From an uncultured Wohlfahrtiimonas sp. (lineage in GTDB: Bacteria > Pseudomonadota > Gammaproteobacteria > Cardiobacteriales > Wohlfahrtiimonadaceae): DNA of 48,133 nt. The stretch lies in contig CANRJJ010000009.1 of NCBI GenBank assembly GCA_947630895.1, positions 1-48,133 on the forward strand, in the 5' to 3' direction. The notes beneath the pieces were generated by a model. It was not told where the DNA came from and did no database searches. It saw only the letters and a program-made list of their open reading frames with translations. A program made the translations under genes and the position numbers. Shown piece by piece: positions 770-12,799 of this stretch (position 1 is the stretch's first letter; every line of letters begins with the position of its first letter).

Positions 770-1273
770 TTACAAAGCATACAATAACAAAGATGTAGAT
801 TGATAATTTTCCAGAAGTATTCTTTCCTTCAAAGAACTCTTTCTCTCTAATCTTCCATCTAGATCATCAATCACAAACAACCTACGCCACACTCTATCAA
901 ATAACAGGTCACAATCCACTTCTACATTTTTTTTAAAAGATTCTACATTCCAGAAAATATAAGCTTTATTGTTCGTCTCCAAACAAAGTTCTAAGAACTT
1001 CAGAAATACCTCCAGCATTTTTTGATCTACTATCATTTTTTCAATAGCATTAGAATCAATAAAATAATAACTATTAGGATTAACACTTAGATGAAATCTC
1101 AACTCATCCATATCGTTAAGACTATCTATGCTAAACCCATAGGCTCCAGTAAAACTTCCTTCAAGAACTTCATTTTGAATCCAGTCAATTAACTGTTTCG
1201 AAGCATTCGACTTTTCATACACAATTAGTGTATGTTCTTTTTCATTCAATAAATCTATTTTTTTTACTTCCAC
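770..1273 (-). CDS. Unrecognised 167-aa protein, possible island cargo
   Basis: I do not recognise this family. It starts with GTG at 1273, with GGAG and GAAGA upstream, and lies 30 bases after epmC and 76 bases before the helicase, all on the same strand. The protein is soluble, with no signal peptide or membrane helix. It alternates short hydrophobic strands (HTLIVYEK, YYFIDSN, KAYIFWNVE, RRLFVIDD) with charged helices, suggesting a small alpha/beta fold. No catalytic motif stands out. The position suggests co-transcription with the helicase, so an accessory subunit, specificity or immunity role is possible but unsupported by sequence. Confidence 0.7.
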   Translation of the reverse strand: MEVKKIDLLNEKEHTLIVYEKSNASKQLIDWIQNEVLEGSFTGAYGFSIDSLNDMDELRFHLSVNPNSYYFIDSNAIEKMIVDQKMLEVFLKFLELCLETNNKAYIFWNVESFKKNVEVDCDLLFDRVWRRLFVIDDLDGRLERKSSLKERILLENYQSTSLLLYAL

Positions 1274-1303: not shown

Positions 1304-1798
1304 TTAATAGCGATTTAATGCAGATAGCGCTACCAACACTTTGCTTGCAGTAGGAGGTGCTGATATAAGCATTTCTTGATATGCTTTATCTAGTTGTTGC
1401 AAAAAGTCTTCTGATGCTGGCATGCCAGAAAAATCATCCAAGCTAGGACTAAACTTTATTCCAAGAGCTTCGCACATTGCTTTTTCTAATCCTTGCGGTC
1501 TGGCTTCAACTTTTTCAAAAAGCAATTGCTCTTCTTCGGTTCTACCACAAGGAAAATACCAATAACCAAAATCATCTAATTTTCTACGTCTATCCCCTGA
1601 CAAACAGAAGTGAGAAAGTTCATGGAGCAGGCTTCTAGGATAGTTATCTCTGAAATAAAGAGTAGCCTTTTTACCATTTTTAGCAGCTTCATAAAAAGGT
1701 TCTTCTGCACCACCTTGTATTACTAAATCTGGGATCACACTGGATAATGTCATGATCAATAAATCACACAACTCATCATCTGTTAAAACATTTCTCAT
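1304..1798 (-). CDS. epmC: Elongation factor P hydroxylase EpmC (intact copy)
   Basis: EpmC (YfcM) hydroxylates the lysylated lysine of elongation factor P, the last step after EpmA and EpmB. The 164-aa protein carries the family signature: LLHELSHFCLSGDRRR (residues ~57-72, metal-binding HExxH-like stretch), then FGYWYFPCGRT and FEKVEARPQ. ATG at 1798 is preceded by AGGAAG and lies only 5 bases after the stop of the TnpC-like gene, so it looks like the last gene of the recombinase operon. Its first ~60 codons are a diverged duplicate (43/57 identical residues) of the broken copy at 7764-7952. Whether it is an island-borne replacement or a gene rebuilt at the island junction cannot be decided here. 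Confidence 0.85.
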   Translation of the reverse strand: MRNVLTDDELCDLLIMTLSSVIPDLVIQGGAEEPFYEAAKNGKKATLYFRDNYPRSLLHELSHFCLSGDRRRKLDDFGYWYFPCGRTEEEQLLFEKVEARPQGLEKAMCEALGIKFSPSLDDFSGMPASEDFLQQLDKAYQEMLISAPPTASKVLVALSALNRY

Positions 1799-1803
1799 TA
1801 AAT

Positions 1804-2229
1804 TTACTTCCTACTCCGCACGATTAACTTAAGTTTCATATCATCTTTTTCTATTAAACCTGTTTCTAATTCAAGATTTCTTCGCATGATATTAATATAA
1901 TCAGTCATCAATTTGTCATATTCCTCTTTAAGCTGATAATACTTTTCTTTAGCTTCTTTTTTCAGCCGAATTTCTTTATTTAATTTTGCAGCCTGAGTAT
2001 CAATCACTGGTGAGCGCTCAGCTCTAATTTTTTCAGCTTCTGCAATTGCATCGCATAGTTCAGGGTAACGATCATATCTTATATACCCTCTGCCTCTCCC
2101 TGCTTCTTTTCCTACTGCCTCTTTAGTAAATTTAAATCTTGATGATTTAGTATCAACAATTCCAGTATTTCCATTTTTCAACCGCTCTAATGCATCCCAA
2201 TACTCTTGTGCTATTTTACTAATTTTCAT
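1804..2229 (-). CDS. TnpC-like small coiled-coil protein of the recombinase module
   Basis: A basic protein of about 141 aa, starting at ATG 2229 (GGGA seven bases upstream); a TTG at 2253 is a less likely start. Residues ~1-70 contain KEAGRGRGYIRYDRYPELC, which looks like a helix-turn-helix-type DNA-binding region. Residues ~75-130 form a predicted coiled coil rich in K and E. Size, charge and position directly after the two large recombinases match TnpC of Tn554-type elements, an accessory protein that influences orientation and efficiency of insertion. It overlaps the upstream recombinase gene by 11 bases. The assignment rests on context and general pattern, not on a recognised signature. 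Confidence 0.6.
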   Translation of the reverse strand: MKISKIAQEYWDALERLKNGNTGIVDTKSSRFKFTKEAVGKEAGRGRGYIRYDRYPELCDAIAEAEKIRAERSPVIDTQAAKLNKEIRLKKEAKEKYYQLKEEYDKLMTDYINIMRRNLELETGLIEKDDMKLKLIVRSRK

Positions 2230-4279
2230 ATTCATTTCCCATCGTCCCAACAATATTCTGCATAAAACTATCTATTCTTTTTATATTCAACTCATATTCA
2301 TTTCTAGCTCGACTAGGCAATGTAGTCTGCAATTGATCTTGGTAAAACTCTTTTGTTTGTTTTAAAGCCTCTATTGAACTGGGGAGAAATACTGCATTTT
2401 CACAGCTCACACATGCTGAAGCTAAAACACCAGCACCTTTATTACAAGGTTTTGGAGACATGCACCCTCCTACCATAGTCGGTCGATAACGAATTTTTCC
2501 ATTTTTAACTGCTTTCGCTGTTTCTTTACGAGATGTTAAAAATGCAGGTAATTCTTTTTTCAACTTCTGAACACTTAATCTTTTACCTGCCACACCTGAT
2601 AGGGCTATATCACTATTAACTAAGTCATAAATATGGTCAGATTCAACTCTTGCTCTGGCATCTAACCATTCTGACTTAAGTGCATTAACACCATCTTTAT
2701 TGCTCAAAATGTCTATAGCTCTAGAATTTGAGTCAGCATAATAAGCAGTCATTACCATACTAATATGTTTTAACTGAGCCTTTAATGTTGGGTATGAAAC
2801 GTTACCACTACCTGCTGCATAAACAGCTAATGATCTTCTGAATTGATGAAGTGTTAATGGCCATAAACTACCTTTCACCACTAAAGCCGAATCTTCACCG
2901 TACAGAAACCATCTCAGCTCTTCTACATCACCCTCTGATATAGTTAATTCAGTCTGATAATACTCTTTAATTAATTTATCTAATCCTAATGTTGTCACTG
3001 AAAAATCAAAACTAGGATGATGAGTTCTTTTTTCTTGCTGTTCAGATGATAAAAACAGAGGAACACTCCTTTCATTAATAACATTAGTAACAGAGCTTCC
3101 TGAAAATTTAAGAATACCCATTGCTATTACTCTAGAAACATCGAAAGCGAGCTGAACAATACTACTAGTTACCCATTTAGTAAATTTTGGCACTCCATGC
3201 TCTTCAAGTTTTGTCGTTGTTGACCAAACAACTGGAATATTTCCTTTATCTGTATCTAAATAACTTAACCCATTGAAAGGAATAGCAAGAATTTCATTCC
3301 TGCGCATACCTGTAAAAGCAGCTATCAACACGGCACTTCGTGTTTGCCAAAACCCTAAACTACGAACAATACCTGACCAAGTATTATCTCTAGAGATTCC
3401 TTTATCTAATAACTCATTCAAAATAGAACGTAACTCTGGATCTTTCTTCAGAATGCATTGCCAATAATAATTGGTTTTATTTTGTTGATTTCGGGTCAAG
3501 TCACCTTTAATCAAGTCATTACCTACGCCGACTCCTTGATCTCTAGCTAATGCTCTATTTACAAAAACATAATTAATTTTCTCTTTAAATTCAATAAATA
3601 GAGTTAAATCTTCAATGATTTTTTTAAGAAAGCACTGATATATATTAGATGGAATTAAAAGGGTCTGTGTACTTTCAGTGGTCTCTGGAAATATTTTTCG
3701 ACTATTTCTTAATTTAATTAAAAAGTCATTAGATGGTTGATACTTACTCCAAAATGGATTTTCATTATGAGTCAAAATAATATCAATAAATCTTTGAATT
3801 TTCGCTAGAAAAACCCCCGTTTGCTTTTCTGTAGAAATATGTTTAATCATAAAATCTATGGACATTGGGTCAGAAAATATATCTAAAAAATTATTTTCTT
3901 TTATCACTTGATATGCAACCAAATAACTAAGGGCTGTAGCATCCCCGTTTAACTTAGATATTGAACACCCTCCAATTATGCTAATCCAATGTAATATGAT
4001 TTCCTTATATACTGTTATTGCCTTATCTAGAGCTTGTGAATATTTGATATCATGTTCTTCCTGCAAAAATACAGACTGAACTTTACTTCTAAAATTTATC
4101 GTTTTCAGTGAGGCACTAGTAGCACTGTAATCCCAAATATCATCTCTAAATCTTGATAATGGTTTACCTGATTTTGTTATGGTCACAACTAAATCCATCG
4201 GAATCGATAAAGGTAAATCATGTGCTTCTATTGGCATTACTACTTCCTTAACGGAAGATTCTCGCATCATGATTGCCAT
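2219..4279 (-). CDS. Large tyrosine recombinase (TnpB-like), catalytically complete
   Basis: This 686-aa protein has the tyrosine recombinase catalytic set: Arg I in AAFTGMRRNEIL, the HxxR box in LTLHQFRRSLAVY, then LKHISMVMTAYYA with the second histidine and the nucleophilic tyrosine. After the catalytic domain comes a cysteine-rich segment (GGCMSPKPC followed by SACVSCEN), possibly zinc-binding, and a charged helical tail. Such long recombinases with C-terminal Cys clusters are typical of TnpB of Tn554-like elements. ATG at 4279 follows GGGAATAG and overlaps the 661-aa gene by 13 bases, indicating translational coupling. It probably acts with the two neighbouring recombinases on the island ends. 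Confidence 0.85.
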   Translation of the reverse strand: MAIMMRESSVKEVVMPIEAHDLPLSIPMDLVVTITKSGKPLSRFRDDIWDYSATSASLKTINFRSKVQSVFLQEEHDIKYSQALDKAITVYKEIILHWISIIGGCSISKLNGDATALSYLVAYQVIKENNFLDIFSDPMSIDFMIKHISTEKQTGVFLAKIQRFIDIILTHNENPFWSKYQPSNDFLIKLRNSRKIFPETTESTQTLLIPSNIYQCFLKKIIEDLTLFIEFKEKINYVFVNRALARDQGVGVGNDLIKGDLTRNQQNKTNYYWQCILKKDPELRSILNELLDKGISRDNTWSGIVRSLGFWQTRSAVLIAAFTGMRRNEILAIPFNGLSYLDTDKGNIPVVWSTTTKLEEHGVPKFTKWVTSSIVQLAFDVSRVIAMGILKFSGSSVTNVINERSVPLFLSSEQQEKRTHHPSFDFSVTTLGLDKLIKEYYQTELTISEGDVEELRWFLYGEDSALVVKGSLWPLTLHQFRRSLAVYAAGSGNVSYPTLKAQLKHISMVMTAYYADSNSRAIDILSNKDGVNALKSEWLDARARVESDHIYDLVNSDIALSGVAGKRLSVQKLKKELPAFLTSRKETAKAVKNGKIRYRPTMVGGCMSPKPCNKGAGVLASACVSCENAVFLPSSIEALKQTKEFYQDQLQTTLPSRARNEYELNIKRIDSFMQNIVGTMGNEYEN

Positions 4280-6252
4280 TTTACTATTCCCTTATTAGTG
4301 TCTTTAATCATTTCTTCCATTACCAGGATCTGCTTATCCCAGTATTTATGATAAATTCCTTCATTTATAGCTTTTACCGCTTCATCAATCAAATCACTAA
4401 CAGATGAGCTTTTATCATGCACAGCTTCAATAATCTCACTAATTCTATAAATAGATGGTTCAACAGCAATTGTAAAATGCTCAGGATCATTACGTATACT
4501 AGATATTTTCAATAAAGCTTCTTTCAAACTTAATAACTTATGTATATCTTCAAAATCAGTATGTATAGAAAAAAACTTACAGAACAAACAGCTTTCAAAG
4601 GTTCCACATTCTGGTTCTGGCGCATTATCATTAAATCCATTAACTCGAACAGGTGTTAGTTCTGATAAATTAGAGCATGATCCTGTTGCGATTCTTTCTG
4701 TTTTATCCATTTTTTTAATATCAGTAATAACATTAATCGGAATGGCTTCATGCGTATCTCTATTAAACTGCCTAACTTTTAAAGTTAAATCCTCATGAAA
4801 ATTATTCATTTCAATAGCCTGAGATTCTAAATCAATAGATGTATAGCTTTTAGCAACCATAGCAATCGTATTATTTAGCTTTTTTGCAACTAAAGATAAT
4901 TTTCCTTGTGATTGTTTAATAATATATTCCGCTGCCAAATTACGAATATCTCTTAAAGAAACATATGTTAGATCTTTAAAAAATAATGAGTTATTCATTG
5001 GAGACCAGCCAGCTCCCTGCACCAGCCTAATGATTTCTTTATGCTCACTAATAGTTACAAATAAATAAGTATCAATATCTTGTGTTTTATCTGCATTATA
5101 TCCTTGACTATCAATCCATTCTCTTAATTTCAAATATTTCAATAGTAAACGTTTTAAATAACTAGAAGCTGAAAAATGAACATTTTTTCCAGCCCTATTT
5201 TTGTATTTTTTTGCAAAAGAAGCACTTCCAATCTTACTAAGATCTAAATCTGATATTTTCAAATCAAGACTTGGCTGAACATTTGCAGCAGTGAATGCAA
5301 GATAAACTCTAAAAAAACAATGTACACATAAATTATAAGCATAAATCTTCCCATAATATGATGGGTTATTCATCCATTGTCTTCGATTACGAACTAATGA
5401 GTATCTATAAAAGTCTTTCCTAGATCTATCGCTATCAAAATAAAAAGATAGAGCTTCTTCTATATCTGTGAAAGCTGCTAAGTTTCCTGACTCATCTAAA
5501 CAATTAGGAATGTTTTTAAGTTCTTGTGTAGAAGGTGCAGTCCAATATAAAGACTCATCATTTGATTCTAATAATCGCACCTGTACAGGGTATCTATTCT
5601 CTAAAATAGCATCTGCAAAATGGTTAAAGACTAAAATACAAGTTTGTATATATTTTTCTAAATCCAATAAGCTAACAACTCTCTCAGGAACAATATTTCC
5701 TCGACTGTGAAATTTAGGAATCAAAGCTAATATTTCAGAATCAGAAAGATGAAATGCTGCCTGAATAAATTCTCTTGCACTATTTAACAATTTGCTCAGA
5801 GAGGAAACAGTATATAAGCCACGCTTTCCCTTCTGCTGTAATACCATTTGGTAACTTCGATAATTATTTATCAATTCATCTAATGTTACAGGTTGACTTC
5901 CTTCGAAATCACAATAGTTAAAAAAACTTTTTACATGATAAAGTATCCCTCTTATCGTCTCATTTCTAACACTTTTTCTAGATATATATTCTAAATATGA
6001 ACTAAGCCACAAAGTTCTCTCTGAAGATAAAGAGTGATAATCAACCCTAAGAGCAGCATACTGAGAATATGAATGAAAATAATTATGAACATCTTGATCT
6101 CGTTTTGTATAACAAAGCCTACCGATATCCACCCTAAAAATTCGACCATCAGCCATAGCACCTTTGATAATTAAGCTTTGAACATCTTTAATATTGGCAA
6201 TATCTTTTAAATCCACTTCAACAGTATGTCTAGTATTATTAACAACAATCAT
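4267..6252 (-). CDS. Large recombinase-like protein with degenerate active site
   Basis: A 661-aa protein whose C-terminal third aligns by eye with tyrosine recombinases, but whose catalytic set is incomplete. Where Arg I is expected (TGxRxxE) it reads AANVQPSLDL. The HxxR box reads RDIRN, keeping only the arginine, and the last box reads LNNTIAMVAKSYTS, keeping the tyrosine but not the histidine. A Cys cluster follows (ECGTFESCLFCKFF), resembling that of the 686-aa neighbour. The gene starts right after the stop of the 477-aa recombinase (GGAGAG in the overlap region) and overlaps the next gene. It may be a structural partner in a hetero-oligomeric synapse rather than an active strand-transferase; this is inference. 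Confidence 0.75.
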   Translation of the reverse strand: MIVVNNTRHTVEVDLKDIANIKDVQSLIIKGAMADGRIFRVDIGRLCYTKRDQDVHNYFHSYSQYAALRVDYHSLSSERTLWLSSYLEYISRKSVRNETIRGILYHVKSFFNYCDFEGSQPVTLDELINNYRSYQMVLQQKGKRGLYTVSSLSKLLNSAREFIQAAFHLSDSEILALIPKFHSRGNIVPERVVSLLDLEKYIQTCILVFNHFADAILENRYPVQVRLLESNDESLYWTAPSTQELKNIPNCLDESGNLAAFTDIEEALSFYFDSDRSRKDFYRYSLVRNRRQWMNNPSYYGKIYAYNLCVHCFFRVYLAFTAANVQPSLDLKISDLDLSKIGSASFAKKYKNRAGKNVHFSASSYLKRLLLKYLKLREWIDSQGYNADKTQDIDTYLFVTISEHKEIIRLVQGAGWSPMNNSLFFKDLTYVSLRDIRNLAAEYIIKQSQGKLSLVAKKLNNTIAMVAKSYTSIDLESQAIEMNNFHEDLTLKVRQFNRDTHEAIPINVITDIKKMDKTERIATGSCSNLSELTPVRVNGFNDNAPEPECGTFESCLFCKFFSIHTDFEDIHKLLSLKEALLKISSIRNDPEHFTIAVEPSIYRISEIIEAVHDKSSSVSDLIDEAVKAINEGIYHKYWDKQILVMEEMIKDTNKGIVKWQS

Positions 6253-7686
6253 CTAATACTCTCCTTTTTCAAAGATCGCACTAAATGAATCTTGAATATC
6301 ATTAAACTCATCTATTTCACTATCAAAACTTAAATATTTTTCTGTTGTAGCAACATTTGTATGATTTAAGTGCTGTCTAACGTAATCAAATATTTTAGGA
6401 TCAGGATATCCCTTTTCTCTTAAGTTTCTAACTATGTTCATGCCTGAAGTCGCACGCAAATCATGAAAAGTAAAATCTCCAAGAGAATCATTCGTCTTTT
6501 TCAATCTTTCAATAAATCGAATCAGCTCTGTCCTTAATGATTGTCCACTTTTTATTGCCATGAATGCTTTCAATTGACTATCTTCATCCTGGATATTCTG
6601 TCTCGCAATAATTTCTCTTTGTGCAGAAAAGTAAGGATTACCACTACGTGTTAAAAAAACATAATTATCTTGGCTATCACCATAAAAACTAGTTGATTGC
6701 GCTCTCCTTCGTTCTGCTCTAGAGCAGTAAATATAATTCATTAAATCTTCAATCAATTTACGACTAAAAACTAAACGATTATATCGCCCACCTTTAGTAT
6801 CCGAGGGATAACGATAACCAGTATGGATTACAACAGAATGAGATTCTGGTTTATCATCTAAATCATCATTTGCTTTTTCTATACAACCTATGCTTAAAGT
6901 GCATATAGTCTGCTGTCGTGCTCCTGTCTCCAAAGCAATTCTAATCATTAACTCAAGTTCAATTGAAGCAAGATTTTGCTCAAATCCATCAAAAACAATT
7001 CTTTGTTCTTCATATGTTAATGGCCTTAGATTACCTCCATCCCTTATTTTCCCAATTTCTACTTCAGATTTTCTACCGCCTCTAATTCTTAAATCACTAG
7101 TGCTAACATTTATATCTCGTAGTAGTCCTACTCGATTTTCAACCATTATTTTCTTATCAATTTGTGTAAACGCCTTATTTTTGATACTACTTTTAGGCAA
7201 AAGGCCATGGTGCTCAATCTGGATATAAAAATCTACTACTGTGGATAATATATTATTGATATATGCAATACTAAAACCATTACTTTCAATAGACTCACTC
7301 AAAAATCTTTTAAACTTTTGAGGTACTCTTTCATAATATTTGGTTGGTAGATCTAAAAAATGCTGGTCGGTATCTTCGAGGTATTGAAGATAATATTTAA
7401 GGCAAAGTGCTTTTGAGGAAATAGTTTTCAAATTAGGCAAACTAGGTTGGCTTAACAAACTAATTAAATATGCGTTACCTATATCCCACGGTAAACTATT
7501 CGATTGTAGAATTACAGGCATTTTGGGATATATTTTATTGTTTTTCAAAAAATTCAACTCATATTCACTTGAACCATCAACAAGTGAATTAACACTCCAC
7601 TTCAAATCAGCCAAATAAAAACTATTAAGATAAATTACTTTCGCTTTAGATTTAAATAAAGCATTTACTGATGACTTCAAACCCAT
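6253..7686 (-). CDS. Tyrosine recombinase (TnpA-like), first gene of the module
   Basis: A 477-aa protein with complete tyrosine recombinase motifs: Arg257 in ALETGARQQT, the box FHDLRATSG (H408, R411) and HLNHTNVATTEKY with the nucleophile Tyr451. The N-terminal half is a SAM-like core-binding domain. It is the gene closest to the island's right end (about 80 bases from the epmC junction), as TnpA is in Tn554-type elements. ATG at 7686 is preceded by AAAGGA. No obvious terminator separates it from the broken epmC upstream, so read-through from the host epmC promoter could contribute to its expression. Confidence 0.9.
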   Translation of the reverse strand: MGLKSSVNALFKSKAKVIYLNSFYLADLKWSVNSLVDGSSEYELNFLKNNKIYPKMPVILQSNSLPWDIGNAYLISLLSQPSLPNLKTISSKALCLKYYLQYLEDTDQHFLDLPTKYYERVPQKFKRFLSESIESNGFSIAYINNILSTVVDFYIQIEHHGLLPKSSIKNKAFTQIDKKIMVENRVGLLRDINVSTSDLRIRGGRKSEVEIGKIRDGGNLRPLTYEEQRIVFDGFEQNLASIELELMIRIALETGARQQTICTLSIGCIEKANDDLDDKPESHSVVIHTGYRYPSDTKGGRYNRLVFSRKLIEDLMNYIYCSRAERRRAQSTSFYGDSQDNYVFLTRSGNPYFSAQREIIARQNIQDEDSQLKAFMAIKSGQSLRTELIRFIERLKKTNDSLGDFTFHDLRATSGMNIVRNLREKGYPDPKIFDYVRQHLNHTNVATTEKYLSFDSEIDEFNDIQDSFSAIFEKGEY

Positions 7687-7701
7687 TCAACATCCTTTAT
7701 A

Positions 7702-7774
7702 AAATTGTACACACTAAATATATGAGATTACTAGTATGTCAACCTTTAAAGAGTTGTGTGTAATTCATGCAGCA
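7702..7774. other. Probable right attachment junction of the island
   Basis: Similarity between the two epmC copies ends at about 7764 (shared TTCATG-AGCA, also at 1619-1629). Outside the shared part lies an imperfect inverted pair, GTACACAC at about 7707-7714 and TGTGTGTAA at 7755-7763, about 40 bases apart, as might serve recombinase binding. A 14-base identical stretch, GGATAGTTATCTCT, occurs in both copies inside epmC. The exact crossover point cannot be fixed without an empty site. Confidence 0.45.
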
Positions 7775-7952
7775 TACTTCTCGGATAGTTATCTCTAAAA
7801 TAGAGTATTGCCTTCTTACTATCTTTAGCTGCTTCATAAAATGGCTCATCAGCACCACCTTGTATTTCTAAATCAGGCAAGACTACTGACAAAGCCTCTA
7901 TTATTACCTTACATAATTCATCATCACTTAAAATATTATTATTCATAAACAT
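7764..7952 (-). pseudogene. epmC: epmC, 5' fragment truncated by the island
   Basis: The frame from ATG 7952 (or 7946) encodes the first ~63 residues of EpmC, ending RDNYPRSMLHEL, then runs into unrelated HTTL and a stop at 7746. The cut falls in the middle of the HExxH-like metal motif, so the product cannot be active. It matches residues 5-61 of the intact copy at 1304-1798 with 43 of 57 identities. Both copies point the same way and the recombinase island lies between them. This is the original host locus: it keeps a promoter-like upstream region and sits next to the glycosyltransferase gene. Confidence 0.85.
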
Positions 7953-8041: not shown

Positions 8042-9637
8042 CTAATGTTGTAGTATTTTTTGAAAAAGCTGCAACCATTTTTCTCCCACAGTTTTTTCAG
8101 AATACCTTTCTGCACTTTTACGAGCGTTATCCGATAATCTTTTTTGAAGCGTTGAATCCTGCATTATCTGGATCACTTTATTAGCCATAGATTGAATATC
8201 ACCATATGGTACCAAATAACCGTTTTCATCTGATTGCACGAGTTCTTGCTGACCATATGGAACATCAAAAGCAACAACAGGACATCCGTGAGCGAGACTT
8301 TCCGCAAGTGACAAACAAAATGATTCTGAAGGACTAGAAATAATTGATAAAGTTGCAGATTCATATTCATCAGCAACATTGTCACACCAATTATGCAAAA
8401 ATATATTATGTGTCATGCTCAAATCTTTAACTAAGCTTTTCAGTGCTGTCAGTCGATCTCCAATACCATAACAATGAAATTCAGCTTTTGGAATCTTCTC
8501 AACAACCTTGGAAAAAGCTTCTATCGCTAACTCATGCTTTTTATCCGTGGCATAACGAGCAAAATAAACTGCTTTTAAAGGCATTCTTTCCAAATCAGCT
8601 TGATTAGTATTTGGCATAGAATATGGATGTGGAATTGCATACACATTATCTGGATTATCAAATTCATCCAATATCTTTTGTCGTTGAATATTTGTCTGAA
8701 CAATCAAAGCATCAAAAACAGTTAAATCTTTAAAAACATCTGCATAATTGCTATTGATCGAATTAGTTTTTTTCTCTTCATAATTAATTATATGTTTATT
8801 ATGAAGAGTGGGAAGTACGCTAACTCGATCAATTCCAAGCTTTGATTTCAATTTAATACTCGGACTATAGAAATATTTATTTTTATCAACTATAAATAAA
8901 TATTTTATTTTATTATCTAAGTAATTATCAGGCTCATAAATATTCCTTCTTTCTTGATTGAAATACTGCTCTAAGCAATAACTGATAAAATCTTCTTCGC
9001 TAGATAAAAACCCGGAAAATCTCCCTTCCTCATCAAAAGTTTGATATTTTGTTGAAACTCTTTTATCCGCGTCATTATAAAAATGTTGTTTCACTAAACA
9101 TATTTTACGGTTTTGTTGATAAAAAACTTCTTGCTCTATTTTTCCCTTAATCGTTAGACTCAGAATTTGTGTACAACTTAGATGTCCGCTTTCATGATAA
9201 TAATCGCGACGTAGCTTCAATCCGTTATCAAAATAATTAATATAATGCAATCGATTGTTTAATTTGCTATATATAGCAAATGCCTGTAAACGCCCTTTAT
9301 CATCTAAATATTTAATATTTTCTGTACTTTTAAAGGGAACTTTTTCTCTCGCCAAACCTATAAAAATATCTGGTGCAACATAACCAATAAATTGCTGTAA
9401 ATAATCATAGATACTCAAGACAACTGCCGATTCTGGCAATCTTTTTCTTTGCTTAAAGATAGAAACTTCTGTTGCCAAATGACTACGATACAACCGAGTT
9501 AAAATTGTTACAGTAAAACCAAGTTGTCTATGAAAAAGTTGAGCTCTTAGTAAAGCAGAACCTTCGATTCCTGTATGTTTTAAACCTAAATCATTTTCTA
9601 AAAAATAAATTTTTGTATTGTCTATAAAGTTACTCAT
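8042..9637 (-). CDS. GT4-family glycosyltransferase
   Basis: A 531-aa cytoplasmic glycosyltransferase with a GT-B fold. The C-terminal domain carries the EX7E-type donor-sugar motif in SPSESFCLSLAESLAHGCPV and AVYFARYATDKKHELAIEAF at the domain entrance. The long N-terminal half (residues ~1-300), with many short strands (YFDNGLKLRRDYY, QTFDEEGRFSGF), resembles the added beta-rich domain of GtfA/TagE/TarM-type enzymes, which transfer glucose or GlcNAc onto polymers or serine-rich proteins. It follows the 554-aa alpha/alpha-barrel gene on the same strand after about 70 bases, suggesting a shared operon. Acceptor and sugar cannot be read from sequence. Confidence 0.8.
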   Translation of the reverse strand: MSNFIDNTKIYFLENDLGLKHTGIEGSALLRAQLFHRQLGFTVTILTRLYRSHLATEVSIFKQRKRLPESAVVLSIYDYLQQFIGYVAPDIFIGLAREKVPFKSTENIKYLDDKGRLQAFAIYSKLNNRLHYINYFDNGLKLRRDYYHESGHLSCTQILSLTIKGKIEQEVFYQQNRKICLVKQHFYNDADKRVSTKYQTFDEEGRFSGFLSSEEDFISYCLEQYFNQERRNIYEPDNYLDNKIKYLFIVDKNKYFYSPSIKLKSKLGIDRVSVLPTLHNKHIINYEEKKTNSINSNYADVFKDLTVFDALIVQTNIQRQKILDEFDNPDNVYAIPHPYSMPNTNQADLERMPLKAVYFARYATDKKHELAIEAFSKVVEKIPKAEFHCYGIGDRLTALKSLVKDLSMTHNIFLHNWCDNVADEYESATLSIISSPSESFCLSLAESLAHGCPVVAFDVPYGQQELVQSDENGYLVPYGDIQSMANKVIQIMQDSTLQKRLSDNARKSAERYSEKTVGEKWLQLFQKILQH

Positions 9638-9707
9638 TGTTTATGATTATCCTTTAGCATTATATTTTGAATAACATCTATCATTACATTATTAATAAAC
9701 AAAAAAA

Positions 9708-11372
9708 TTACTCGTTTGATTGTAAATATTTTTGATATGCGATCAATCCCGATAAATAATGCTCAACGTCATCAATTCTTACTCTAAAAGAATGATGTCT
9801 AATAAAAAAACCGCCTAAAATTCTTCGAGGATTTTTAAAGAACATAGCTACTTCTGGATAAAAGAAACCATTCAAGAGATAGCGCGCGCGATATTCTAAA
9901 GCCTGATAAAATTTATCTAGATCAAATCCATCTAATAGATGAGAGGTTTTGGGATCATTTTGCATGCGTACAATCATTTTCTCAGCAGCCATCATCAATT
10001 CTAATAAAGTCGGATAAGTCGTAATGCGATTTAAAACAAAATCAAGATGATCGCGTACATTATCAAGCCCAAATTGATAATACTTTGGATCAGGCTTATA
10101 AAGCGTCAATTCATTAACAGCATAACTTTGCCAGTGATCGTGAGCACTCCAATGTTTATTTTCAATAAAGTAGTCAAAAGCTTTTTCTAAAGATTCCAAC
10201 CACCGAGGATCTCTAGTAATTCCATACAAGCGCATTAAGGCAAATGCTGCCTCTCCATCATAATAAATAGTGCGATTTTTCTCTTTAAGACTTAAATCAG
10301 GGTAATTCAAAACATGCACATATTCACCTGTTTTACTATTTTGCATATGCAAAATACCAAGTGCTAGCTGTTCCATTATCTCTAAATATTTCTGATCTCC
10401 AGTAATTTCTGTGTATTTTGCATAGGCTAAAATACATGCAGCGTTTCCGCCTAGCTTAATTTCATTACCTGTGTCTACTAAAAAAGCAATCGAAATACCA
10501 TCAAACTTCACAATTTTAATTAATTCATTAGTCAGATATTTTAGTGCTTGTTCAATTGCTTTTTTTTGTTCAGGCTCTCGCGTAAATTCCCATCCTTCTA
10601 ATAATGCATATGTGGAACTTGCATGACGCAATGCATTATAAGTTGGGATTGGTCGATCAAAACAAGGAAACCAGCCATAATGATAATAACCATTCGATTT
10701 CACCTGTTTTGCCAAATAAGCACTGCTTATCTCTATTAGATTAGTTGCCATTTCGATATCTAATTGATCGATTTTTCGATAGCCACTATTTCGACCTGTT
10801 GATTCTATTTCATAAACACCCTCTTGATCTGCAAATACAGAAAGCGTTTGAAAACAATAGATTAATTGATCATCCTTTGTAGGCCATTGCAATTCTTTTC
10901 TAAATCTACGTTTACTAAAGTTTTTCAAATTATTGCTATTAGGAATTGCAAAACTAGAATCTGAATCGTACAAAATAGCATTCGCACAAAGTTCATGTTC
11001 TAAAATAGCCGTTTTGAAATCTGGCGTAAAAGATAAACCATAGCGAAAATAATTTCTTTTTGTTTTACTTAGTTTTAACTTTAAATCCGACCAACTTAAC
11101 GTTTCTATTTCTCTAACAATTTCCACTCTTAACCAAACAGGTCTCGAATGTTTTTTTACTCTCCATTGTTTTAAAGCTACTACACCTTTATTCCAAGCAT
11201 TTTCATAACTATCAGCTGTTGCAATCTCAATATGGGCCTGCTGAATACCATCTGATATAGCAAAAAAAAGTATAAAGTCAGGATGCTCCTTCGAAAATTT
11301 TTGAATTGATTGTTTTTCTAACACGGCATCTAATTTATTTTTTGTTGTTTCTAAAAGCTGCTCCAAAGACAT
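9708..11372 (-). CDS. Alpha/alpha-barrel (six-hairpin glycosidase-like) protein
   Basis: A 554-aa protein without a signal peptide. Residues ~210-550 show repeated helical hairpins typical of (alpha/alpha)6-barrel proteins: AAFALMRLYGITRDPRWLE, AACILAYAKYTEITGDQKYLE and YHYGWFPCFDRPIP. The N-terminal ~200 residues form a separate domain of unknown type. Similar proteins sit beside GtfA/TagE-type glycosyltransferases, as here, so a role in making or trimming the same glycan is likely. Catalytic acids cannot be assigned with confidence. It starts at ATG 11372 and is probably the first gene of the pair. Confidence 0.6.
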   Translation of the reverse strand: MSLEQLLETTKNKLDAVLEKQSIQKFSKEHPDFILFFAISDGIQQAHIEIATADSYENAWNKGVVALKQWRVKKHSRPVWLRVEIVREIETLSWSDLKLKLSKTKRNYFRYGLSFTPDFKTAILEHELCANAILYDSDSSFAIPNSNNLKNFSKRRFRKELQWPTKDDQLIYCFQTLSVFADQEGVYEIESTGRNSGYRKIDQLDIEMATNLIEISSAYLAKQVKSNGYYHYGWFPCFDRPIPTYNALRHASSTYALLEGWEFTREPEQKKAIEQALKYLTNELIKIVKFDGISIAFLVDTGNEIKLGGNAACILAYAKYTEITGDQKYLEIMEQLALGILHMQNSKTGEYVHVLNYPDLSLKEKNRTIYYDGEAAFALMRLYGITRDPRWLESLEKAFDYFIENKHWSAHDHWQSYAVNELTLYKPDPKYYQFGLDNVRDHLDFVLNRITTYPTLLELMMAAEKMIVRMQNDPKTSHLLDGFDLDKFYQALEYRARYLLNGFFYPEVAMFFKNPRRILGGFFIRHHSFRVRIDDVEHYLSGLIAYQKYLQSNE

Positions 11373-11650: not shown

Positions 11651-12799
11651 TTAATAAGCAGCTTTAAAAATAGCAATCACTTCAGATTCATCACCTTTAC
11701 GTGGATTAGTGAATGAACAAGCATCTTTTAATGCATTACCTGCCAAAGTTGCAAAATCAGACTCTTTCGCACCTAAGTCTTTTAATCCATCAGGAATGCC
11801 AACATCTTTGCTCAATGTTTTAATTGCCTTGATAAAAGCTGACGCCCCTTCTTCATCAGTCATTTTCCTCGTGTCAATTTCAAAGCAAGCCGCAAGCTCT
11901 TTCAATCGCCCTGCCGATACATGTGCATTATATTCTTGAACATGTGGTAACAAAATCGCATTACAAACACCATGTGGTAAATCATAGAAACCACCGAGTT
12001 GGTGAGCCATCGCATGCACATATCCTAAAGATGCATTATTAAATGCCATGCCCGCTAGAAATTGAGCATATGCCATCGCTTCTCTGGCAGCCATATCATT
12101 ACCATCATTGACAGCATTTCTGAGATTTTTATGAATAATCTCTATGGCTTTTACAGCACACGCATCTGTAATTGGCGTAGCCGCTGTAGACACATAAGCT
12201 TCGACAGCATGTGTCAAGGCATCCATTCCCGTTGCAGCTGTTAATGACTTTGGCATACCTTTCATTAATTCAGGATCATTGACTGACAAAATTGGCGTTG
12301 TATGCGCATCCACAATCGCCATTTTTATGTGACGTTTTTCATCTGTAATAATACAGAAATATGTCATTTCTGATGCCGTACCAGCTGTTGTATTAATAGC
12401 AATCAATGGCAGTTGAGGGTGCTTAGAAACATTCACGCCTTCATAATCATTAATTTTTCCGCCGTTCGTTGCCACTAAAGCAATCCCTTTAGCGCAATCG
12501 TGCGGTGAACCACCACCCAATGAAATAATCGAATCGCAATTTTCTGTCTTTAATATTGCTAAGCCATCTTCTACGTTTTTAGTTGTAGGATTTGGTTGAG
12601 TGCCTGCAAATACAACTGATTCTATTCCTTTATCTTTTAATCCTTTTGTGACTGTGTCGATAATTCCAGCTTTTTGCAAACCTTCATCGCTGACAATCAA
12701 TACTTTTTTAAATCCGTGCGATTTAATCTCATCATATGCTAGATCCAAAGCACCTGTACCCATGATATTTTTTGAAGGCATTAAAAATTGTGTAGCCAT
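11651..12799 (-). CDS. Iron-containing (class III) alcohol dehydrogenase
   Basis: A 382-aa NAD(P)-dependent dehydrogenase interconverting alcohols and aldehydes; substrate unknown. The dinucleotide-binding stretch is [15 protein letters not shown] (residues ~93-107). Metal ligands by analogy with FucO/YiaY are D193 and H197 ([11 protein letters not shown]), H262 and H276 ([16 protein letters not shown]). Length and motifs match YiaY/DhaT-type enzymes over the whole protein. ATG at 12799 follows a strong AAAGGAGC. The gene is single, with its own terminator at 11530-11566. Confidence 0.93.

Follow-up and report, generated by a model that had tools for sequence, protein, structure and literature searches.

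Elements of the SE type carry four recombination genes in the order intA, tfp, intB, srap (PMC10214605). They are bounded by imperfect inverted repeats of 13–19 bp, C and C′, with a 6-bp spacer between them when the ends are joined, and they form circles in a strand-biased manner that leaves no empty site; strand-biased activity has been demonstrated for an SE on the plasmid pAQU1. Tn6283 (SE-6283) was described in 2018 as an insertion into bcp of E. coli with a carried homologue 54.8% identical to it, and compensation was proposed (PMC5991714). This element and the bcp-targeting SEs of Vibrio (PMC5991714, PMC9345347) resemble the locus described here in the set and order of their four recombination genes, in lying within a protein gene of which they carry a divergent homologue, and in the placing of that homologue, the locus tag of the carried bcp coming directly after that of srap (VYA_19790, VYA_19800). 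They differ in their target, bcp rather than epmC, and in host, which here belongs to the Cardiobacteriales; identity between carried and resident gene goes down to about 40% for epmC, against the figure given above for bcp in E. coli. Tn552-II, a Tn554-type tnpABC element, likewise carries a homologue of its own target gene, the target-gene-like gene tgl, for which its authors propose rescue (PMC12486829), but it has three genes and no Tfp, belongs to Staphylococcus, enters a yolD-like target and has unrelated cargo. The recA-mobile elements of Vibrio cholerae, in the account cited in PMC5991714, also break a conserved gene and bring a diverged homologue of it, although there they are called an ICE family and the target is recA. 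Finally, GInts (PMC5385486) resemble the present module in their three integrase-type proteins with a small helper, in the cargo that follows and in having one fixed target site, but have the order ginA-ginB-ginC with the non-catalytic member last; those in ssb lie at the end of that gene and leave the product unaltered, in contrast to the whole gene copy carried here.

The window analysed here, 48,133 nucleotides long, is contig C9 of an uncultured Wohlfahrtiimonas sp. from the contig's base 1, in a genome of 2.13 Mb in 123 contigs. It very probably holds the left part of an SE-type element that inserts in the metal-motif codons of epmC and carries a complete, divergent epmC, most likely restoring EF-P hydroxylation (Table 1). 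Reading from right to left on the minus strand, native genes are followed by two extra genes, a truncated epmC, the island genes and cargo. In genus relatives epmC comes directly after the alcohol dehydrogenase gene and is followed by an rRNA-type promoter or a contig end, so that the truncated epmC occupies the native locus. The two extra genes, a glycosyltransferase gene and a GH88/LanC-like gene (8042–11372), lie between the dehydrogenase gene and epmC, neighbours in five genus relatives, and are a separate lineage-specific insertion. A first, sequence-only reading had given the island as 1304–7952; in fact it begins at 7760 and runs left beyond base 1, where the contig starts.

Table 1. 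Features of the island and its surroundings in the window
Feature	Position	Strand	Basis or remark
SNF2-related helicase (cargo), N-terminal part, cut by contig end	1..693	-	55–58% identical to plasmid homologues
Cargo ORF, 167 aa, without family match	770..1273	-	
Complete island-borne epmC, 164 aa	1304..1798	-	Pfam EpmC 1.4e-32; E. coli YfcM structure 3wtr 1.9e-19
srap-like gene, small protein	1804..2253	-	start probably ATG at ~2229 (MKISKI..) by comparison with sister island
intB-like tyrosine recombinase, 686 aa, long N-terminus	2219..4279	-	catalytic residues present
tfp-like protein, 661 aa, tyrosine-recombinase fold relative	4267..6252	-	without catalytic R and H
intA-like tyrosine recombinase, 477 aa	6253..7686	-	catalytic R, HxxR, H, Y present
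Element left end CACACAACTCTTTAAAGGTTGACATACTAGTAA, candidate motif C	7728..7760	-	31/33 bases the same in sister island
GAATTA, host bases adjoining element end	7761..7766	-	identical in empty sites of G004, G005
Resident epmC 5′ fragment, 62 codons, ends ...LHEL	7761..7946	-	ATG at 7946
Iron-type alcohol dehydrogenase, native gene order of genus	11651..12799	-	gene-order comparison with genus relatives

The junction was placed by comparison with the empty sites of genus relatives and with a sister island in a second genome. The empty sites read CATGAATTA-TCCCATTATTG or similar, coding for H-E-L-S-H-Y-C, and the window reads CATGAATTA-CACACAACTCTTTAA, which makes 7761 the last host base and 7760 the first of the element. 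The cut had earlier been put in an HExxH-like motif at 7764, correctly as to the motif and incorrectly as to the position. Past the junction the resident frame runs into the element as HTTL-stop, with the stop four codons on and ending at 7746. In E. coli YfcM the metal is bound by His59, His63 and Glu98 (PMC4231759), and in that numbering the cut falls between His59 and the other two ligands. With one ligand parted from the others, the resident enzyme must be dead, to judge from the E. coli YfcM structure. By analogy with SEs, GAATTA appears to occupy the position of their 6-bp crossover segment. A promoter scan of the element's left end gave nothing above chance.

The recombination genes run in a single direction, overlapping or nearly so, and their order matches SE synteny; alignment places the RHRY residues in IntA and IntB and not in Tfp, which is the SE pattern. 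Local BLAST matched all four proteins, in the corresponding order, to the complete four-gene set of pAQU1 (IntA 9e-9, Tfp 3e-5, IntB 3e-17, Srap 1e-3), the Srap match to this set being weak, as against 2e-5 to a second, incomplete set; pAQU1 is the plasmid of SE-Pda04Ya311, and either of its sets may be that element. A profile search of pAQU1 for IntA returned no match, whereas local BLAST on the sequence did. On gene order, catalytic pattern and the four-protein pAQU1 match we file the element as putatively SE-type. This fits better than the label Tn554-like given to it before, the set having four genes and a non-catalytic middle recombinase. GInts, RITs and Tn554 belong to the same mechanistic superfamily, and related modules occur on plasmids of Betaproteobacteria, a group from which the published SE survey has none, but it is unlikely that the module should be placed with any of them. 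All four proteins match the SE plasmid set in order. Tn554 has tnpA-tnpB-tnpC, with no third recombinase-fold protein and no counterpart of Tfp (PMC10214605), whilst a Tfp-like third protein of this fold is present here. In GInts (ginABCD), which enter the comparison through their description, the non-catalytic GinC stands third (PMC5385486), but here its counterpart comes second, which is also the SE arrangement, and it is by published gene order that the two are set apart.

Of annotated sets, the one most closely related to these recombinases is on the IncC plasmid pNCYU-21-79-1 (L032:10037-15814), with IntA 36–37% identical and intB in pieces. Among 369 genomes of the class there was no further epmC insertion, and relatives of IntA or IntB were only rare and distant; viral contigs held no divergent epmC and no IntA relative, and one distant relative of IntB. 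Several candidates were rejected. A second interrupted epmC in G003 (L027:9990-10518) is an assembly artefact, in which a single N marks a scaffold gap and a 36-bp overlap is present twice; two-fragment or partial epmC matches in G211 and G385 are contig ends; and epmC on plasmid records of Klebsiella, Salmonella and Serratia is captured chromosome.

Within the family, a close recombinase relative was found in one other of 18 genomes, G017, an uncultured Ignatzschineria MAG and so of another genus. Its island has the order intA-tfp-intB-srap-epmC, as in the window, encodes proteins 74% (IntA), 66% (Tfp), 70% (IntB) and 71% (Srap) identical to those of the window, and is inserted at the same epmC codon boundary (after HE-x). 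The shared five-gene order and codon boundary make a match far beyond chance. The gene behind srap is a complete epmC, which is of the divergent type and shares 78% identity with the copy carried in the window; in the two islands epmC starts 5 bp after the end of srap or overlaps it. The resident epmC of this host belongs to the canonical type and has about 40% identity with the carried gene. Its residues 1–59 are found to the left of intA, and residues 60–182 start at the very end of another contig, adjoining the native neighbours yfcE and nrdD. Both sides of the target, split between attL and attR, are present in G017 (on two contigs); the window has the left one only. In blastn the islands match from the left junction (window 7769) to the last epmC codons (window 1334), and past epmC the cargo differs, an SNF2-type helicase in the window versus HsdM-N and RelB pieces in the sister. 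The sister island also has an extra ORF of 125 aa without family match between intB and srap (L025:8326-8703), and in its cargo an in-frame fusion joins the N-terminal domain of HsdM to a RelB/DinJ antitoxin (L025:10136-10711), apparently a deletion scar.

An intact epmC, 5 bases past the last recombination gene and 75% identical over 57 residues to the broken copy, had been noticed from the sequence alone. Both observations are borne out: the srap stop is at 1804 and the epmC start at 1798, and tblastn finds truncated and intact epmC 73% identical over 60 residues (E 1e-26). Aligned to 3wtr, the carried EpmC retains H59, H63 and E98, the 2-His-1-carboxylate ligand set of EpmC/YfcM, and the acidic residue 105. 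An EpmB-like aminomutase occurs in 18/18 family genomes, scoring under the family cut-off.

The sequence-only reading left a choice between an island that brings its own complete EpmC and one that brings a diverged 5′ part to rebuild the gene at the left junction. Under the latter, an element of ~6.1 kb would end inside the intact epmC, with its own 5′ part fused to the resident 3′ half. Islands of the tRNA type operate so, the two copies have a 5′ stretch of 57–60 residues in common, and no second 3′ half of epmC is found in the assembly; nevertheless we consider a rebuilt gene highly improbable, because in the sister island the gene at the same position is complete and of a type unlike the resident, whose 3′ half lies elsewhere. 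Since the sister's carried and resident genes differ in type, the C-terminal half of the former cannot be resident DNA, and the carried gene is island-borne throughout. The window agrees with this: the C-terminal half of its carried gene has 78% DNA identity to the sister's carried gene and 68–73% to own-genus genes, which have 75–81% of bases in common among themselves. The N-terminal half counts against it, being no closer than 72% in DNA identity to the sister's gene versus 76% to the local resident fragment. Relatives have an rRNA promoter ~0.1–0.45 kb downstream of epmC, where the window has foreign-looking ORFs including the SNF2 helicase. A full-length tree pairs the two carried genes with support of 91/91, under the strict mark. 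The comparisons support an island that carries a whole replacement epmC, with no rebuilding at the left junction. An island-free relative with both epmC copies, which would have told against the reading, was not seen, the five genus relatives having one epmC each; recombinase homologues at unrelated sites were likewise not seen, the nearest homologue also lying in epmC.

The same reading looked for an epmC 3′ fragment at the far end of the island. None was found in the window's own assembly, and the fragment is seen in the sister host only. Both island-bearing genomes are fragmented, and a short lost contig would plausibly explain the missing resident 3′ half, because an rRNA operon adjoins the locus and the contig ends in cargo. 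A motif search of G000 and G017 for the right end and its inverted repeat C′ gave no match above background.

It might be argued that epmC rides along as ordinary cargo or as a duplicate, without a rescue role and in an incidental position. The rescue role is something that we infer, and behind srap in distant plasmid elements and the viral one there is no convincing copy of the interrupted gene, the one very short, weak match being in an E. coli plasmid element. However, epmC is the fifth operon gene in both islands while everything past it differs, the carried gene corresponds to the very one that was cut, its active-site residues are retained and the published bcp elements behave alike, so that we judge incidental carriage to be quite improbable.

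In the rescue scheme that we favour, three recombinase-fold proteins and a small helper would insert the element at the codons of the HExxH metal-binding motif of epmC. The recombinases would recognise the codons around this motif, a target site that should stay conserved because the enzyme needs the metal motif. Insertion leaves a 5′ fragment of the resident gene at the left border. The carried epmC, fifth gene of the operon and directly after srap, most likely takes over EF-P hydroxylation, and the insertion would then cost the host little. Variable cargo follows, and the far end would consist of an inverted C′ motif (the inverted copy of CACACAACTCTTTAAAGGTTGACA), six bases and the resident epmC 3′ fragment with the codons (S/A)H(Y/W)C. 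The two insertions, one per EpmC type, show that the element can enter epmC genes that are otherwise very different. Landing on active-site codons and entering a gene ~40% identical to the carried one suggest how such elements may cross genus borders harmlessly.

The use of epmC by such a module had been thought undescribed. This stands for the gene, since neither epmC nor yfcM was found as such a target anywhere in our literature search, and fails for the strategy, which is published for bcp SEs (PMC5991714, PMC9345347). The novelty lies in which gene is targeted, in the hosts concerned and in how far the rescue copy has diverged from the gene that it replaces. The habit of SEs of breaking a gene and bringing their own copy would not be peculiar to bcp, and extends to a translation-factor modification gene in the Cardiobacteriales. 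It also suggests a simple test for other elements, namely whether the gene immediately downstream of srap is homologous to the one that was cut.

Island insertion may also explain the mixed EpmC types at one locus. Family genomes without the island have one epmC each, canonical or divergent, and the divergent type, which is that carried by the islands, was not seen elsewhere among the 369 class genomes. At the dehydrogenase-epmC-rRNA locus of the window's genus the gene is canonical in G001 and G002 and divergent in G003 to G005; in Ignatzschineria, too, either type can be found, flanked by a DMT transporter gene and yfcE-nrdD. Types ~40% identical to each other thus share a native locus in two genera (L010, L016, L018, L030 and L031 versus L005, L007, L012, L013 and L014). 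A rescue gene could become resident if repeated insertion were followed by loss of the recombinases and the broken gene, swapping EpmC, a core enzyme of translation-factor modification, in place. We offer this as a tentative and rather doubtful possibility: no relics of recombinases or of a canonical epmC were found beside native divergent epmC genes, and in the tree each EpmC type follows the genera. In G010, an ORF of 2093 codons, repetitive in sequence, lies between epmC and yfcE (L128:10345-16623) and is absent in G014.
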